This document shows, one piece after another, positions 1 to 21,939 of a stretch of 22,353 nucleotides of DNA (positions within the stretch are counted from its first letter, which is position 1; every line of letters starts with the position of its first letter). Position numbers and translations under genes: made by a program. The notes under the pieces are model-generated. The model saw only the letters and a program-made list of their open reading frames with translations. It had not been told where the DNA came from and ran no database searches. Origin of the DNA: Thraustochytrium sp. TN22 (lineage: Eukaryota > Sar > Bigyra > Thraustochytrida > Thraustochytriidae); the NCBI GenBank assembly GCA_013306675.1, contig JABLUY010000387.1:1-22353 (forward strand), read 5' to 3'.

Positions 1-155
1 AACTCTTTAATGTAAAAAGAATAAAGCATAACAAGTAAACTGAAAATTTCAACTGAAACCAATGCTGCCTTAACAGCTATTTTTAAACCCAGCTTAGTAA
101 AATAAAAACCTATATCAAAAAAGAGCTTAGGAAATATTTTCAAAATTATCCAAGT
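1..155 (-). other. open frame running off the left edge, unidentified
   Basis: One minus-strand frame is open from just after a UGA at 156-158 to the window edge (51 codons). It encodes a hydrophobic stretch containing KLGLKIAVKAALVSVE followed by a likely membrane helix. No AUG lies at its beginning; the first in-frame AUG comes near the edge. It could be the start of a gene with a non-AUG start, the tail of a frameshifted gene joined to the 42-codon frame just upstream, or chance. I do not recognise the protein. Confidence 0.2.
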
Positions 156-274
156 TCAAAAAAGCATGAATTACTTCCTTTATCTATAGACATTTCATGA
201 GATGTTTTAGGGTCCACCCACACTGTAAACCCTTGGACGTCAGCCATTCCAATTTTTACAAAATCACTGACCAT
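146..274 (-). other. 42-codon ORF of unknown status
   Basis: An AUG at 272-274 opens a 42-residue frame ending in UAA at 146-148, containing GMADVQGFTVWVDPKTSHEM. The start falls inside a 25-bp tandem repeat, and the stop overlaps the beginning of another open frame that leaves the window. The peptide looks more protein-like than random AT-rich DNA, but it is very short and I recognise no family. It may be a fragment of a broken gene. Confidence 0.15.
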
Positions 275-304
275 TAATCTTTACAAAATCACTGACCATT
301 AATC
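255..304. repeat. 25-bp perfect tandem duplication
   Basis: Two identical 25-bp units (255-279 and 280-304) lie head to tail; each contains the core ACAAAATCACTGACCATTAA. Related, diverged pieces recur near 2050-2068 and 2087-2098, at the junction between the decayed copy and the flank of orf814. The element therefore borders the duplicated region on both sides. Confidence 0.85.
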
Positions 305-391
305 GTTTCTTTTATTTGCTTAACTTAAAATATAAACAACCACGATTACAAAAAGAAATATACAAATACGAAACAGTTTCTTCCCTTTACG
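305..391. other. AT-rich spacer without a recognisable gene
   Basis: This stretch between the 25-bp repeats and the large hairpin is AT-rich. I found no tRNA, recognisable ORF or repeat in it. With the neighbouring hairpin and G-rich motif it forms the longest part of the window without an assignable gene. Confidence 0.5.
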
Positions 392-457
392 TTTCTTCTT
401 GCGTTGATATGACGTTCCCTGCGAGCACTCGGTCACGTCATATCACGCGAGAAGAGA
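392..457. other. long GC-rich stem-loop (23 bp, one bulge)
   Basis: The arms 392-415 and 435-457 can pair over 23 bp with a single bulged T at 404 and two G-T wobbles. The inner ten pairs (GATATGACGT with ACGTCATATC) are perfect. The loop is 19 nt (416-434) and contains CGAG and CTCG, which could extend the fold. It is GC-rich against a very AT-rich background, lies outside any recognised gene, and is about 90 bp beyond a G-quadruplex motif in the direction of transcription. It could be a replication origin, a terminator or a processing signal; the sequence does not decide which. Confidence 0.75.
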
Positions 458-506
458 AATTAAGGTTTTAAAATGCAATATAAAAAATAGTGCAAAAAAA
501 CCATCT

Positions 507-615
507 TTGTTCAAAAAGTTTCAAAATAAAACCAATTTTAAACAAAGCCCACCCTCCCACCCCCTTGCTCAAAAAGTTCCAAGACTACACCTATTTTAAA
601 CAAGACCCGCTTTCT
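507..615. repeat. imperfect tandem repeat, about 58-bp period
   Basis: Two imperfect units each begin near TCAAAAAGTT (511 and 569) and end in TTTTAAACAA. They flank the C-rich tract at 548-564. The same two-unit arrangement with a period of about 54 bp is found at 2105-2210 beyond the intact orf814, so the repeat predates the larger duplication. Confidence 0.6.
548..564 (-). other. four-tract G-quadruplex motif
   Basis: The minus strand reads GGGGGTGGGAGGGTGGG: four runs of three or more G separated by single bases, the most stable class of quadruplex-forming motif. The plus strand has the C-rich complement. It lies just past the homologous stop of the decayed orf814 copy. The equivalent place after the intact gene (2148-2160) keeps only three tracts. 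In vertebrate mitochondria a G-rich element of this kind (conserved sequence block II) stops transcription and primes replication; a similar role here is inference. Confidence 0.7.
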
Positions 616-2036
616 TCTAAAAAACAGGAGAAAAATAATACCTTCAAGTCTCCCAAAAATAAAAAAGAATCCCTAAAAGCTTTCAAAGCTGCTGCAACCT
701 TCTCATACATTTTTCGGCTAATTCGGAAGAGGCCTAGCTAATTCCGCATAATAATTATAAGAGAATCCTCCAATTCTTTACTACACGCCATAAAAAATTC
801 TTGGAAAACAGAACCAGGCAAAAGAACTCTACCTTTATTAGCAAACAAAACATATAGCTTTTTCGAAAAAAAAAATAATTAATCATATACCCTACCAAAT
901 GATTATAAAGTACTCGGCCACAATTATAAACAAAAAACCTCTGCGTACGACGTTCATCCAAGCTATTAGTAAGAATCGAAGTCTGAAATCTCTTGCCAAA
1001 TACAGGAGATGTAGGGCTCTCAGGAAACGAGCAATAACCAGCCACAATCTTCCGATGGCTCAAATCAAAAAAACCCTTACCATTAGGCAAATAGACCCTC
1101 GTATGGCGAAAAGAAAAAAAAGCAAGATTATCCTCGACATAATAAAAAAAATTCTTAGCCAAAGGTTTATAAATAAATGGAAAATCTTTACGTTTCGAAA
1201 AAAATGGAACCAAATTTTCCTTAGGAGTAAACACATGATTAGCTTGCTCTTCTGCCACCCAAGAAACAGACTCTTCTCTCTCTTTCCATTTAAAAAGTAG
1301 GGAAAAGAGGGAAGCTCTGTCAGCCTGCAGCAATGCGATTGTTTGAAGATCAAAACTTGAACTTTCTATCAAAAAGACCGAAATCTTATCACGGCTAAAA
1401 AGATTTTCATAAATAGCACATTGCATAAACATCTCCGGAGAAAGAGTTTGACTCTCCAAAAGTTCACGCAAATAATACGCTATACGCTGACAAAACCACT
1501 CCCGATAATACTAACGCTTCAGCTCCCGAACATTACGAGCAATTGAGAGAGGGTTCAAACCCTGCTTTACCAAAAAATTAACCTAAGTTTTCACTGTTTC
1601 TTTATCAAAATCAAAAGGTCCTCAACGTTTAAGATTAAGACCGCCAGCATAAGGAAACTAGAGAAGAAGCTGAAGCAACTTAGACTCAGAAAGGGGCAAA
1701 GACCCCTCCATTGAAATACCCCAAGAGAATCCAAATAAACATCAAGAAGTACCGGATCGATAATACTATAAGTTCTAAGATACTTCGCTCTTTCTTCCCT
1801 GGCTATAAGCGCATAAGATTCCTCTAGCGTATTTGCTTGAAAATAAAGAGAAACCATTTCTCCATGCTGATAACGCTTCGCAAAAACTTCCTCGAGCTCT
1901 TCGACCGAACCAGGCAAGCCCAGACCTTGTGAAAAGCTTTAGTATCGTAAATTACTGGAATTTTACTAACCGCAGCTAACAGGCAAAACAGCTATAACAC
2001 GCTACGAAAAAGCTGTTGTAAGTACAGGATGGGCAT
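591..2036 (-). pseudogene. decayed partial copy of orf814
   Basis: This stretch is a second, broken copy of the 3-prime two thirds of orf814, lying directly downstream of it in the same orientation. Similarity is high: 3 differences in about 115 nt around 1141-1256. In the ancestral frame it has nonsense TAG codons at 1511-1513, 1583-1585 (TGG in the intact copy) and 1658-1660 (CAG in the intact copy). It has lost one C near 1720, and its A run at 866-875 is two bases longer than the matching segment. A 24-nt in-frame block is also missing. Near 1925-1975 two larger deletions remove what corresponds to 3553-3687 (135 nt) and 3726-4039 (314 nt). The homologous stop is at 591-593. Open pieces remain (755-1471 and 1591-1917), but no full protein could be made. 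It is best read as a relic of a tandem duplication. Confidence 0.85.
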
Positions 2037-2104
2037 CAATCATCAAAATACCTACAAAATCACTAGCCATCAGCAGCCACCCCGATTTTTACAAAATACC
2101 TCCC
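2037..2104. other. junction between the two orf814 copies
   Basis: This short stretch links the decayed copy to the flank of the intact gene. It contains two diverged pieces of the 25-bp element seen at 255-304 (CTACAAAATCACTAGCCAT near 2050 and ATTTTTACAAAAT near 2087). No gene was found in it. The repeats at both outer ends of copy B suggest they took part in the duplication. Confidence 0.5.
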
Positions 2105-4112
2105 CTTTGCTCAAAAAGTTTCAAAATAAAACCAATTTTAAACAAAACCCACCCACCCCCTTGTTTAAAAAGTTTCAAAACTACATCTATTTTAAACAAG
2201 ACCTATCTTCTTCTAAAAAACCGTATAAAAATAATACCTTCGAGTCCCCCAAAAATAAAAGAGAATCCCTAAAAGCTTTCAAAGCTGCTGCAGCCTTCTC
2301 ATAAATTTTTTGGCTAACTCCGAAGAGATCTAGCCAATTTTGCTTAATAATTATAAGAGAATCCTCCAATCCTTTACTATACGCCATGAAAAATTCCTGA
2401 AAAACAGAACCAGGCAAAAGAACTCTACCTTTATTAGCAAACAAAACATATTTCTTTTTCGAAAGAAAATAATTAATCATATACGCTACCAAATGATTAT
2501 AAAGTACTAGGCCACAATTATAAATAAAAAACCTCTGCGTACGGCGTTCATCCAAGCTATTAGTAAGAATCGAAGTCTGAAATCTCTTGCCAAATACAGG
2601 AGATGTAGGGCTCTCAGGAAACGAGCAATAACCAGCCACAATCTTCCGATGGCTCAAATCAAAAAAACCCTTACCATTAGGCAAATAGACCCTTGTATGG
2701 CGAAAAGAAAAATAAGTAAGATTATCCTCGACATAATAAAAAAAATTCTGAGCCAAAGGTTTATAAATAAATGGAAAATCTTTACGTTTCGAAAAAAATG
2801 GAACCAAATTCTCCTTAGGAGTAAACACATGATTAGCTTGCTCTTCTGCCATCCAAGAAACAGACTCTCCTCTCTCTTTCCATTTAAAAAGTAGGGAAAA
2901 GAGGGAAGCTCCGTCAGCCTGCAGCAATGAGATTGTTTGAAGATCAAAACTTGAACTTTCTATCAAAAAGACCGGAATCTTATCACGGCTAAAAAGACTT
3001 TCATAAATAGCACACTGCATAAACATCTCCGGAGAAAGAGTTTGACTCTCCAAAAGTTCACGCAGATAATACGCTATACACTGACAAAACCACACCCGAT
3101 AATACGAACCCTTCAGCTCCCGAACATTACGAGCAATTGAGAGAGGGTTCAAACCCTGCTTTACCAAAAAATTAACCCAAGTTTTCACTGTTTCTTCATC
3201 AAAACCAAAAGATCCCCAACGGTGAAGATTAAAAACGCCAGTATAAGGAAACTGGAGAAGAAGCTGAAGCAACTTAGACTCAGAAAGGGGCAAAGACCCC
3301 TTCATTGAAATACCCCCAAGAGAATCCAAATAAACATCAAGAAATATCGGATGATCATTGCTCGACAAAACCAGATCGATAATACTATAAGTTCTAAGAT
3401 ACTTCGCTCTTTCTTCCCTGGCTATAAGCGTATAAGATTCCTCTGGCGTATCTGCTTGAAAATAAAAAGGAACCATTTCTTCATCCGGATAACGCTTCGC
3501 AAAAGCTTCCTCGAGCTGTTCAACCGAACCTGGCAAGCCCAGACCTAGGTTAAAAGCTTTATCAAAAGTTTTATTAAAATTATCAGCATTATCATCCTCA
3601 TTAAGCTCAGCTACTGTATTTTGCAAACAGCAAAAGTTAAAGAAATCGTCAAAAATAGGAAGGAAAACCAACTCGCAAGCAACTCGCAAAGCTTTAGTAT
3701 CGTAAATTACTGGAATTTTACTAACCGCAGAAGCAGCAGCTACAACCGCACTAGTTTGAGAAAGAACAGTAACCCCAGAAGGGTCATCAAACGTAGAACT
3801 AGAAGAAAAAACAAGCCTTGTATCTCGCAGAAAAAAATCTCCCTTAATAGGGTTTACGGCATCCTGCGTAAAAAGAATAGGAGGGTTTGAAAGAAAATTT
3901 TCCAAAGCAACTTTAACAGAGATAGGCGCATTTTCCTTGCAGGACCCTACAAAGTACCCTGTTGAATATTTTTTTGCAGATTCGCGATAAGAAGTATAAA
4001 TAAAACCTCTATTAAAAACCACCTGAAAAGGTGTATCCTCGCAGCTAACAGGCAAAGCATCTATAACACCCTGCGAAAAAGCTGTCGTAAGTGCAGGATG
4101 GGCATCAACTGA
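2105..4112. repeat. direct duplication, copy A (intact parent)
   Basis: This is the parent segment of the duplication, covering the 3-prime two thirds of orf814 plus about 80 nt beyond its stop. It retains the blocks 3553-3687 and 3726-4039 that are missing from copy B. Short direct repeats mark the deletion ends: AAAGCTTTA at 3553-3561 and 3688-3696, and CGCAG at 3726-3730 and 4040-4044. Confidence 0.85.
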
Positions 4113-4631
4113 AGAACGCGCTAGCAGCCGAATTTTAAGCAGAAGGCGTCTAAGAAAAGAGACACAAGAAACTTTACCTCCGTCCAAGTGCTCCTCAGAA
4201 TGTATTTCTAGAAATGTTTCAATGATAATAACGCCCAAGTTCAAAAGGCTCAGCAGCTCAGCAAAACTGGCATATGGTTTTCCTTTGAATGTTCCTGTGA
4301 AAGGAAGTACTTTATCACTTTGTTTTTCAGTTTTAGCAGTAGTGATTTCAAACTCTATATTAATAAGAGTTTGCTTAAGTCCCGAACGTTTCAAAATAAT
4401 ATTCAGCTGAATTGTCCACAGGTGAACATCTTGGCGAAGAGGATGTTGACACCTTTTTGCAAAAACAGAAGCGACTCCACCGTTTCGATTAAATCTATTT
4501 TTTCCGTCCCGACCTAGATATTTAGGAAGATTCACTGCTTGATTGCGGTGAATACCTCCCACAGTAGTAAAACGAACAGGAGTAGGACGGTCAAGTAGAA
4601 CTCTAATAGTAAGGTAAGAAGAAAAAACCAT
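2187..4631 (-). CDS. large unrecognised protein, 814 aa (orf814)
   Basis: An uninterrupted 814-codon frame from AUG (4629-4631) to TAG (2187-2189). A frame this long in such AT-rich DNA points to past or present selection. I recognise no family. It lacks obvious runs of membrane helices and reads as a mostly soluble protein. Residues about 1-60 are basic (RFNRNGG, FAKRCQHPLRQ), the middle holds acidic stretches (AELNEDDNAD, EEAFAKRYPDEE), and the C-terminal half is rich in aromatic residues (NFFYYVEDNL). I see no polymerase, reverse transcriptase, LAGLIDADG or GIY-YIG motif, which argues against a plasmid polymerase or intron-type homing enzyme. Upstream lie a tRNA-like fragment and trnY; downstream is its own decayed tandem copy. 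It could be a very divergent ribosomal protein or a lineage-specific mitochondrial ORF. The ORF is secure; the function is unknown. Confidence 0.7.
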   Translation of the reverse strand: MVFSSYLTIRVLLDRPTPVRFTTVGGIHRNQAVNLPKYLGRDGKNRFNRNGGVASVFAKRCQHPLRQDVHLWTIQLNIILKRSGLKQTLINIEFEITTAKTEKQSDKVLPFTGTFKGKPYASFAELLSLLNLGVIIIETFLEIHSEEHLDGGKVSCVSFLRRLLLKIRLLARSSVDAHPALTTAFSQGVIDALPVSCEDTPFQVVFNRGFIYTSYRESAKKYSTGYFVGSCKENAPISVKVALENFLSNPPILFTQDAVNPIKGDFFLRDTRLVFSSSSTFDDPSGVTVLSQTSAVVAAASAVSKIPVIYDTKALRVACELVFLPIFDDFFNFCCLQNTVAELNEDDNADNFNKTFDKAFNLGLGLPGSVEQLEEAFAKRYPDEEMVPFYFQADTPEESYTLIAREERAKYLRTYSIIDLVLSSNDHPIFLDVYLDSLGGISMKGSLPLSESKLLQLLLQFPYTGVFNLHRWGSFGFDEETVKTWVNFLVKQGLNPLSIARNVRELKGSYYRVWFCQCIAYYLRELLESQTLSPEMFMQCAIYESLFSRDKIPVFLIESSSFDLQTISLLQADGASLFSLLFKWKERGESVSWMAEEQANHVFTPKENLVPFFSKRKDFPFIYKPLAQNFFYYVEDNLTYFSFRHTRVYLPNGKGFFDLSHRKIVAGYCSFPESPTSPVFGKRFQTSILTNSLDERRTQRFFIYNCGLVLYNHLVAYMINYFLSKKKYVLFANKGRVLLPGSVFQEFFMAYSKGLEDSLIIIKQNWLDLFGVSQKIYEKAAAALKAFRDSLLFLGDSKVLFLYGFLEEDRSCLK

Positions 4632-4644
4632 AGCATATAAATAC

Positions 4645-4669
4645 TAGCGAAGCACGGGTTTGAACCGGA
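4645..4669 (-). other. tRNA-like 3-prime fragment (T-arm and acceptor strand)
   Basis: On the minus strand a T-arm-like segment with loop TTCAAAC (stem TCCGG with CCGTG, imperfect) is followed by seven bases CTTCGCT and an A at the discriminator place. No matching 5-prime acceptor strand (AGCGAAG), D-arm or anticodon arm is found within 100 nt upstream, so this is not a complete tRNA. It lies just ahead of the orf814 start and may be a tRNA remnant or chance. Confidence 0.3.
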
Positions 4670-4876
4670 AATCGCCACGAAGCAATTTTAATAAAAACAA
4701 AATGCCCAGGCCAGCCCATAGCAAATTTTTTAAAACTTCCAAAAATAAGATGCTTTAAAAGTATTTGCCAAAAGCAGGAAAAAAATTAAAAAACCCACAA
4801 AAGACTACTTAAAAACTTAACTTCCAAATAATTAACATTTAGTAAGAAAAAGACTGGCTTAGAAAAAAATTAGCCC
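4670..4876. other. AT-rich spacer between orf814 and trnY
   Basis: A stretch of about 200 bp with no assignable gene. A 38-codon minus-strand frame begins with ATGGGCTGGCCTGGG near 4719 and runs across the tRNA-like fragment into the orf814 start in another frame; I see no family resemblance in it. A promoter or processing site for orf814 could lie here, but no motif is evident. Confidence 0.4.
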
Positions 4877-4959
4877 TGAGAAAGATTGGATTTGAACCAA
4901 TGAATCCAAAAGGAATTTGATTTACAATCAAACGCAATAAACCACTATGCGACTTTCCC
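4877..4959 (-). tRNA. trnY: tRNA-Tyr (GUA)
   Basis: Cloverleaf with acceptor GGGAAAG paired to CTTTCTC, anticodon stem TTTGA/TCAAA and loop TTGTAAA giving anticodon GTA. The T-arm is ATTGG-TTCAAAT-CCAAT. It has a long class II variable arm, as bacterial-type tRNA-Tyr does, and discriminator A. It follows atp8 and precedes orf814. Confidence 0.95.
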
Positions 4960-4990
4960 AAAACCTTTCAAGTTAGAAAGTTTAAATAAG

Positions 4991-5374
4991 TTATAGACGT
5001 TTCAAAAGCTTAAGCTGCATCACAGTATTCAATACGGAAGACAAATAGGCAGAATTAAATTTAAAAGCTTTAGAAGTTTTTGAACTCGTTGAATTTGACC
5101 AGCGAGAAACCTCATTTGAAGATTTTTGGAGCAATGCGTACGAAGAATGACATGCTTTGCTAAAAAAAACATCATAAAGAGAAGCTGTTTCTTTTCCTTC
5201 CTTTTCCAACAAAGACGTAGACTGCAACAAAAATGAGCCTCGTTTCTTACGCAATTTCAATGAAAATGCAATCAAAGGCACAACCGTTTGAAATGTAATA
5301 AAGTAAAACAACCAAAAAAAAAGCAAAAGCCAAAAGATTTGCGAAAAAAAAGTTGTGATATCCAACTGTGGCAT
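4991..5374 (-). CDS. atp8: ATP synthase F0 subunit 8
   Basis: Encodes 127 aa of the membrane subunit 8 (YMF19 family), part of the peripheral stator of the mitochondrial ATP synthase. The N-terminus MPQLDITTFFSQIFWLLLFF is diagnostic: the family begins MPQLD and enters one membrane helix (about residues 9-33) with a conserved FW. A hydrophilic basic tail follows, which is poorly conserved in the family. The length is usual for algal and plant forms and much longer than the animal one. AUG at 5372-5374, stop TAA at 4991-4993. It follows trnK by 13 nt. The open frame of nad5 runs through trnK into the start of this gene in another frame, but that is probably not translated. Confidence 0.93.
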   Translation of the reverse strand: MPQLDITTFFSQIFWLLLFFWLFYFITFQTVVPLIAFSLKLRKKRGSFLLQSTSLLEKEGKETASLYDVFFSKACHSSYALLQKSSNEVSRWSNSTSSKTSKAFKFNSAYLSSVLNTVMQLKLLKRL

Positions 5375-14331: not shown

Positions 14332-15299
14332 AAAATAAACCAATTAAAACTCAAAAGAATACTTGAAGTAAGAACCACCCAACTTATAGAAAGAGGCAAA
14401 AAAATCTTCCATCCCAACCGCATTAGCTGATCATAGCGATATCGAGGAAAAGCAGCCCGAGCCCAAATGAACAATCCGATAAAAATAAAAGTTTTAAGCC
14501 CAAAGCAAAGACTCCCTGAAAAAAATGAAATAGGAAAAAGCCAACCCCCCAAAAAAAGAATAACGGTCAACGCACTTATCAAAATCATATTACCATACTC
14601 TCCCAAAAAAAACAAAGCAAAACCTATAGCGGAGTACTCAACGTTATAACCAGAAACAAGTTCCGCTTCAGCTTCAGGCAAATCGAAAGGATGCCTATTT
14701 GTTTCTGCGAGGCAAGAAATAAAGAATAGAATAAATATAGGCAATAGAGGCACACAAAACCAAATTGACTGCTGCGCAAGAACAATTTGAGTCAAGTTCA
14801 AAGAACTAGCACAAAGAATGACATTCATTATAATAAAACCTATAGAAATCTCATAAGAAACTATCTGAGCGGCAGACCGCAAAGCTCCAAGAAAAGCATA
14901 TTTTGAATTACTAGCCCAACCGGAAATAATAATTCCGTATACTCCAAGGGAAGAAATTGCGAAAAGGTAGAGAACCCCAACATTCAAATCACTAAAAACA
15001 TACGTTTCATTAATAGGCATAACAGCCCAACCTATCAAACTAAGAAAAAATGTAATCATAGGGGCAACAATAAAAAGCATCTTATTGGCGCTGCTAGGAA
15101 GGATTGTCTCTTTAACCAAAAGTTTCAGCCCATCAGCAAAAGCTTGAAAAAGGCCAAAAGCACCAATCAGATTGGGCCCACGCCGACGCTGAATACTACT
15201 CAAGATTTTACGCTCTGCTACCGTAAACAAAGCAATACCGATGAGAAGAGAAACGATAATAGCCAAAGCCTTTAGAACATGTTCAATATAAAACAACAT
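14307..15299 (-). CDS. nad1: NADH dehydrogenase subunit 1
   Basis: Encodes 330 aa of ND1, the quinone-channel subunit of complex I. Motifs: the first helix ending in [19 protein letters not shown], the [16 protein letters not shown] loop, [13 protein letters not shown], and the acidic loop [20 protein letters not shown], ending [20 protein letters not shown]. Eight helices, normal length. The AUG at 15297-15299 gives the expected N-terminus and overlaps the end of nad11 by 17 nt. The stop TGA (14307-14309) lies inside nad4L. Confidence 0.97.
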
Positions 15300-15915
15300 A
15301 AAAAATATTTGAAAAACCACCAACTGGACACAAATCAATAATGTTACCAGAAAGCTTAGACTTTAGAGTTTTTTGCACGAACGTACCGATCTCAGAAGCT
15401 TCACCGCGACCGGTTATACCAAAAAAAGAATAACCCGCAACCTCATTCAAAAACCGAACACAGCGGGTGCAATGAATGCACCGAGTTATAATCATAGAAA
15501 TCAAAGGGCCTACATTTTTATCCAAAACGGACCGCTTTGATTCAAAAAAACGAGATTTTTCAGTTCCGTAAGTAATTGATTGATTCTGAAGATCACATTC
15601 ACCACCTTGATCACAAATAGGACAATCTAGAGGATGATTTTTCAAGAGAAATTCTATAACAGCCTCCCTTGCTTTTTTGACAAGAGGGGTTTTTGTGTAA
15701 ACCTTTATATTCTCTGCGACAGGTATAGCACAGGAAGCAACAGGCTTAGGAAATTTTTCAATTTCAACGAGACACATTCGACAATTACCTGCGATAAGCA
15801 AACGCTCATGAAAACAAAAACGAGGAATATTTTCCCCTACTTTAGCGCAGGCTTGAAAAACAGTAGAGTTACGACTCACAAGAACTTTAGTATCATTAAT
15901 ATAGAGAGAAAGCAT
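15283..15915 (-). CDS. nad11: NADH dehydrogenase subunit 11, iron-sulfur domain only
   Basis: Encodes 210 aa of the N-terminal part of the 75-kDa subunit (NuoG) of complex I, in the matrix arm. All ligands are visible: Cys34, 45, 48 and 62 for the 2Fe-2S cluster; His94, Cys98, 101 and 107 ([10 protein letters not shown]) for one 4Fe-4S cluster; Cys146, 149, 152 and 196 (CIHCTRC with a later CPVG) for the other. The protein stops shortly after CPVG, so the large molybdopterin-like C-terminal domain (roughly 450-500 residues) is missing and not found in the window. It may be a separate gene elsewhere or nuclear, as known in several stramenopile lineages. AUG at 15913-15915 overlaps nad4 by 40 nt. 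Confidence 0.96.
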
Positions 15916-21681: not shown

Positions 21682-21939
21682 TTAACAAACCACTTTTACT
21701 CTAAAACTAGCAAAACTGTCTTTGGAGATAGACGCCAAAGAATAAATAAAAAATTCTTTAATAGAAGACCACGAATTAAAAGTTTGCATGCTTGCATTTC
21801 GTGTGTAAAAAGAAAAACGAAAAGAAACTTTCGCTTTTTTATTTACATTATGAGATTTATTTGTGGTGTATACGACTGTTTTTCTTTGAAATTTACTTTT
21901 CTTATTATAAGAATAGAACGACGGAATACAATAAAACAT
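21682..21939 (-). CDS. hypothetical basic protein (orf85)
   Basis: An 85-codon frame, AUG at 21937-21939 to TAA at 21682-21684, fills the gap between trnF and trnE. The product is basic and rich in Lys, Ser and Phe (NKKSKFQRKTVVYTTNKSHN in the first third), with no membrane helix. It ends in a more hydrophobic segment (FFIYSLASISKDSFASFRVK). Its size and charge suggest a small divergent ribosomal protein, but no family motif is recognised. Its filling of an otherwise compact genome argues that it is real. Confidence 0.55.
   Translation of the reverse strand: MFYCIPSFYSYNKKSKFQRKTVVYTTNKSHNVNKKAKVSFRFSFYTRNASMQTFNSWSSIKEFFIYSLASISKDSFASFRVKVVC

Follow-up and report, generated by a model that had tools for sequence, protein, structure and literature searches.

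A 791-codon orphan gene with a TTA stop in the mitochondrial DNA of Thraustochytrium sp. TN22

The mitochondrial DNA of Thraustochytrium sp. TN22 carries a minus-strand open reading frame, called orf791 here, that is almost certainly a genuine protein-coding gene ending at a TTA codon. The window analyzed is a stretch of 22,353 nucleotides (contig C318 of a 37.9 Mb assembly in 453 contigs). It represents most of the mitochondrial genome, and all of its core genes lie on the minus strand. As a best explanation, held tentatively, we propose that orf791 is a long-resident, fast-evolving orphan mitochondrial gene with a TTA stop, and that its product has a role with nucleic acids.

Genetic code and extent of orf791

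The code of this mitochondrial DNA is the labyrinthulean code with TTA as a stop, which we take to be NCBI table 23. The 31 delimited genes besides orf791 end at TTA (15), TAA (14), TGA (1) and TAG (1). The ends of these genes were set by a scan with TTA as a stop, and their TTA-free interiors are thus there by construction. Independent support for the TTA stop comes from the frames under table 11 and from Pfam coverage. When the core-gene frames were read with the standard code, TTA was seen only at or beyond the expected C-termini; the early TTA codons listed for nad5 and rps13 precede the start codon of the given stretch. The TTA-free frames include atp6, atp8, cox2, rpl5, rpl14, rps7, rps11 and rps14. 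Thirteen of the 15 TTA-ending genes were sent to Pfam, each read only to its first TTA, and all 13 reached ≤6 positions from the profile end before that codon. A tRNA-Leu(taa) was absent among the 21 tRNAs found in the window and on a second contig, C363.

In the mitogenome of Schizochytrium sp. TIO1101, TAA, TGA and TTA are given as stops (PMC7799850). For Labyrinthulea, PMC12574857 cites an altered mtRF2a that is thought to recognize UUA, and Ser204 is the serine treated there for this factor. On contig C177 of the present assembly there is an RF2-type release factor that reads VRISEYDTNGRRQTCF, with an altered codon-binding region containing SEY and QTCF. Bacterial RF2 carries the SPF motif and HTSF. 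The altered factor would be in keeping with a mitochondrial factor that reads UUA. The code, together with the gene set, suggests that the organism is a labyrinthulean.

The original prediction had described a gene of 814 codons at 2187–4631. The minus-strand frame is indeed open for 814 codons under tables 11 and 4, but because TTA is a stop in this mitochondrial DNA, the gene has 791 codons. The two parts of the frame are as follows.

2256–4631, minus strand: orf791, a protein-coding gene of 791 codons with an ATG start and a TTA stop at 2256–2258 (first TTA at codon 792; scan with four stops; TTA absence and RSCU as given below)
2187–2255, minus strand: 3' flank of orf791, earlier counted as coding, with four further in-frame TTA codons and a TAG (frame reading)

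The frame shows no TTA across 791 codons and then five TTA within 24 codons. Given 29 TTG codons, and taking the A:G ratio from comparable codon pairs of orf791 itself, zero TTA would arise by chance with P ~1e-10. The other five frames of the same stretch contain 15 to 112 stops each. The RSCU of orf791 correlates with that of the core genes at 0.90 (0.924 with ribosomal genes and 0.889 with respiratory genes), compared with −0.09 to 0.50 for its other five frames. AGA and AGG account for 15 of the 40 arginine codons in orf791, 33 of 107 in the ribosomal genes and 15 of 134 in the respiratory genes. The GC3 values are 0.296, 0.278 and 0.300, respectively. In its codon usage orf791 matches the ribosomal-protein genes resident here; it is therefore not a chance frame, nor is it plainly a recent arrival. 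An acquired element had been suggested; as a recent acquisition, this is argued against by the host-like codon usage. Taken together, the absence of TTA, the core-like codon usage and the stop-filled alternative frames indicate that orf791 is real and has long been resident in the genome. What marks a protein gene of a labyrinthulean mitochondrion, a TTA-free interior followed by an accepted stop, is found in orf791 and the core genes alike.

orf791 had been called the longest gene in the window, and it is the longest one delimited under the organism's code; the next is nad5 with 659 codons. Its description as very AT-rich is not distinctive, with a GC content of 0.355–0.393 (1-kb steps, 2001 to 4500) against 0.324–0.398 elsewhere. 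The predicted product has a mass of ~90 kDa and a pI of 8.5. Lysine and arginine exceed aspartate and glutamate in residues 1–170 (14.7% vs 7.6%) and in residues 561–791 (12.6% vs 8.7%). There is one hydrophobic stretch (residues 119–144, Kyte–Doolittle mean up to 1.87), which could be a membrane span and would then speak against a purely soluble protein.

Gene content and searches for relatives

Contig C363 (14,190 bp) overlaps both ends of the window, by 2.6 kb and by 55 bp. It carries both rRNAs, four tRNAs, nad7, tatC, rpl2, rpl16, rps3 and others, and the joined circle would be ~33.9 kb. We sent 29 of the 31 delimited genes to Pfam, leaving out nad4L and atp9. The expected family was matched by 28 of the 29, four of them below the cut-off, and rpl5 gave no match. 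With an 85-residue frame included, 29 of 30 translations matched a mitochondrial family; the five below the cut-off were rps7, rps3, rps11, rpl6 and the 85-residue frame as rps10. Outside the set of 31 stand nad2 (cut between the contigs), rps19 (seen by eye) and the rps10 candidate. The names of rps19, rpl5, nad2, nad4L and atp9 were given by reading only.

The rps10 candidate is a minus-strand, TTA-free frame at 21682–21939 with a weak match to ribosomal protein S10 (E = 0.0076, below the Pfam cut-off). S10 is unneeded to fill the TIO1101 gene count. The nad11 gene is split, with its first half in the mitochondrial DNA (15289–15915) and its second half on contig C393, which is presumably nuclear.

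Compared by its printed annotation (PMC7799850), the TIO1101 mitogenome is similar to this one. TTA is among its stops, it has 21 tRNAs as found here, and its listed gene classes were all found here. It differs in that its longest annotated protein gene is nad5 (1968 bp), with none the size of orf791, and in that an rps10 candidate is seen here. Set against the printed TIO1101 list, the gene set here agrees except for additions, of which orf791 is the largest.

Searches of Pfam, PHROGs and NCBIfam with orf791 gave no match at E values up to 10. This agrees with the earlier statement that the gene has no recognizable family, with the length corrected to 791 codons. Within the whole 37.9 Mb assembly, orf791 matches only its own copies. 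We also scanned the protein with 14 motif patterns of our own. Twelve of these were unmatched, including those for RT, RdRp, PolB, LAGLIDADG, GIY-YIG, HNH and Walker A. The two matched patterns were loose ones, a T7-RNAP-type pattern (also matched by 30% of shuffles) and PD-D/ExK (45% of shuffles). As had been noted, a convincing polymerase, RT, LAGLIDADG or GIY-YIG motif was thus absent among the patterns scanned. A polymerase of a linear mitochondrial plasmid or a mitovirus was rejected, as the PolB and GDD patterns are absent, only the loose T7-type pattern is matched, and Pfam gave no match. A LAGLIDADG or HNH homing endonuclease was likewise rejected, with neither signature motif nor Pfam domain in orf791.

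Exact eight-residue patterns, which miss distant relatives, gave no credible relative in viral contigs (whole protein and two parts) or in genome contigs. Phages and plasmids yielded only matches at E = 4, none of them credible. One of three bacterial genomes searched gave a match (E = 0.017, 24% identity) in a 5002-residue frame, which we judged to be chance. A related mitogenome, sought in viral contigs through tatC and cox2, was not found there. Among the papers listed in our literature searches, one reports a thraustochytrid mitogenome (TIO1101), and no title or abstract describes such a gene. Two AlphaFold models from single sequences, the second of the last 202 residues (590–791), had mean pLDDT values of 34.2 and 37.1, too low to be usable.

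A highly divergent mitochondrial protein had been put forward as one reading of the gene. In general terms this is possible: orf791 could be a strongly diverged version of a known protein, for example a respiratory subunit or a ribosomal protein that has expanded. Its codon usage is closest to that of the ribosomal-protein genes, and several known proteins of this genome are themselves diverged, with rps7, rps3, rps11, rpl6 and the rps10 candidate below the Pfam cut-off and rpl5 without a match. PMC6723347 describes nad11 as split in two in many stramenopiles, and only the first half is in this mitochondrial DNA. However, the molybdopterin-oxidoreductase domain of the second half was found on contig C393, and the C-terminal half of nad11 is excluded as the identity of orf791. 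All other genes listed for TIO1101 have been assigned, and even at E values up to 10 neither Pfam nor NCBIfam recognizes orf791. We therefore consider a diverged known protein unlikely.

orf791 is one of the unidentified mitochondrial open reading frames, an already known class. Among stramenopile mitogenomes, six such frames are given for Cafileria marina and four such regions for Cafeteria (PMC6723347). Like orf791, these are open frames of mitochondrial DNA without relatives by sequence search. What sets orf791 apart is codon evidence of its translation, in the avoidance of TTA over 791 codons.

Repeat region, broken copy and selection

Bases 1–2255 are the one sizeable part of the window that lacks a core gene; the other gaps are 292, 244, 145 and ≤30 bases. 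It had been predicted that the gene sits with repeats and structured DNA outside the compact core array, and orf791 does have repeats, a hairpin and its own partial copy as neighbors. The features of the region are as follows.

2105–2158 and 2159–2212, no strand assigned: two AT-rich 54-bp repeat units downstream of orf791 (family D5, 72–94% to the reference unit)
505–2039, minus strand: truncated, broken copy of orf791 with its 3' tail, in three collinear fragments at 505–1941, 1933–1975 and 1971–2039 (identity, nonsense codons, frameshifts)
505–558 and 563–616, no strand assigned: the copy's own pair of 54-bp tail units (family D5)
394–455, no strand assigned: hairpin beyond the end of the copy (DNA fold of 380–470: −19.7 kcal/mol, z −5.16, 0 of 200 shuffles as good)
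251–304, no strand assigned: 25-bp tandem repeat with 2.2 copies, and partly similar stretches at 2047–2108 (repeat search)

For the mitochondrial DNA of Thraustochytrium aureum, PMC5910586 describes one-strand polarity and a single large intergenic region of repetitive sequence, and the region that holds orf791 looks to be of this type.

The copy is 92% identical to orf791 over 1463 aligned bases in the largest fragment and 100% and 91% identical in the two small ones. It is truncated at the 5' end and lacks the first 174 codons. Two internal deletions relative to orf791 have junctions that share 9 and 5 bp. Across the 422 codons compared, the copy has five new nonsense codons; it also has three frameshifting indels and one 24-bp in-frame deletion. 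None of these nonsense or frameshifting changes has a counterpart in orf791. Among the 25 longest of 88 inverted-repeat pairs in window positions 1–5000, the one nearest to bracketing orf791 is 19 nt long and 79% identical (392–410 with 4606–4624). Its far arm lies inside the start of orf791, and we judged the pair to be chance.

The original prediction had allowed for a selfish gene that duplicates itself. This was not supported, as the only duplicate is an adjacent, 5'-truncated and broken copy, with no other match in the 37.9 Mb assembly. Ordinary local duplication in a repeat region accounts for the copy. It would have been followed by deletions at short shared sequences, and gene mobility would play no part.

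Where the two contigs overlap (window 1–2599 and C363:11585–14190), they differ at 22 sites and by one 7-bp indel. The differences cluster at 1–230, 568–592 and 1100–1156. At the six differing sites in the coding part of the copy, C363 matches orf791, a pattern suggestive of gene conversion or of a mosaic assembly.

The 69 substitutions between orf791 and the copy fall on the three codon positions as 31/24/14. Ten of the changed codons are synonymous and 54 are not, against a neutral expectation of 15.7 ± 3.4 synonymous; the simulation compares mutations with changed codons (69 vs 64), a small mismatch. A gene that evolves slowly and acquires synonymous changes as fast as the copy fits poorly (P ~1.5e-4). 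Purifying selection is not visible in these substitutions, and the pattern fits neutral change.

Such neutral-looking change is what would be seen if orf791 were a recent ex-gene, now free to decay and open only by luck. However, the 791 codons of orf791 are free of disabling changes, whereas eight small ones have accumulated in the copy over roughly half as many codons. Were the two equally free to decay, the two-sided chance of all eight falling in one copy would be ~0.008, a generous figure, as orf791 was singled out for being open. We regard a decaying gene as rather improbable. Fast evolution of the protein together with a frame that is kept open would fit both the neutral-like substitutions and the intact orf791. 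It would also explain the absence of recognizable relatives.

The Hpy188I resemblance and the proposed role of orf791

A stretch of 44 residues in orf791 (661–704, with 14 identities) resembles the restriction enzyme Hpy188I. The match to the PDB entry had E = 0.0046 with the C-terminal part of the protein and 0.045 with the whole, and the PADLOC model REase_II matched at E = 0.001. When this model was run across the assembly, it matched only orf791 and its copies, with a best E of 0.06. Residue E695 aligns with what we take to be the catalytic Glu149 of Hpy188I.

The family itself is strongly conserved. We found Hpy188I-like enzymes at 15 loci, including Alphaproteobacteria, Bacteroidia, Bacilli, Elusimicrobia, Campylobacter, Helicobacter and others, and this scatter suggests horizontal transfer.

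A profile built from 15 bacterial relatives gave orf791 9.7 bits, a score reached by 3 of 20,000 shuffles and not significant after selection. The hhalign probability against the Hpy188I-like family was 20%. orf791 shares the 44-residue stretch with the Hpy188I-like GIY-YIG endonucleases, but the pattern scan found no GIY-YIG block, and the R..YNCG block follows the matching stretch instead of preceding it, so that the two are not collinear. Neither the order of blocks nor a significant family-profile score thus places orf791 in this family. As regards a fold shared with Hpy188I, the single-sequence model of residues 590–791 has a mean pLDDT of only 37. With a broader profile the score of a true relative should rise, and here it fell. 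Judged from sequence, the resemblance is most likely chance.

These observations bear on the view of orf791 as selfish or mobile, derived from a plasmid or coding for a nuclease and active now or until recently, with the Hpy188I-like part as its endonuclease. The PADLOC and PDB matches at residues 661–704 and the adjoining repeats and duplicate are what would be expected. Against this, 9.7 bits and a probability of 20% are no evidence for a match picked from a whole library, the GIY-YIG block is absent with R..YNCG on the wrong side, and the copies are only local and broken. We consider an active or recently active selfish or mobile gene very unlikely. There is next to no chance that the frame is an assembly artefact: the 22 differing sites and one 7-bp indel over 2.6 kb show that the repeats are not cleanly resolved, in assembly or in haplotype, but the 413 bases of orf791 present on both contigs are identical, and the frame avoids TTA and has core-like codon usage.

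We return to the proposal that orf791 is a long-resident orphan gene. It would have been in this mitochondrial DNA for long and would have evolved fast enough that its relatives are no longer recognizable. It may descend from the gene of a mobile element that settled in the mitochondrial DNA. Because both of its ends are basic, the protein would most likely bind nucleic acid in the matrix; this function is the weakest step of the proposal, and a nucleic-acid role is only weakly suggested by charge alone. Perhaps, though we rather doubt it, orf791 founds a new mitochondrion-encoded family, as the largest protein of this mitochondrial DNA, with a novel role and kept open despite its quick turnover.

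If such genes are annotated with the standard code, their 3' ends are placed too far out, in the case of orf791 by 23 codons. Protist mitochondria commonly carry orphan frames, and telling the genes among these from the rest is usually difficult. The reassigned TTA provides a clean internal test: 791 codons free of TTA, followed by five TTA in 24 codons, indicate a frame that the ribosomes of this mitochondrion have translated under selection. Orphan frames of any labyrinthulean mitogenome can be examined in this way.
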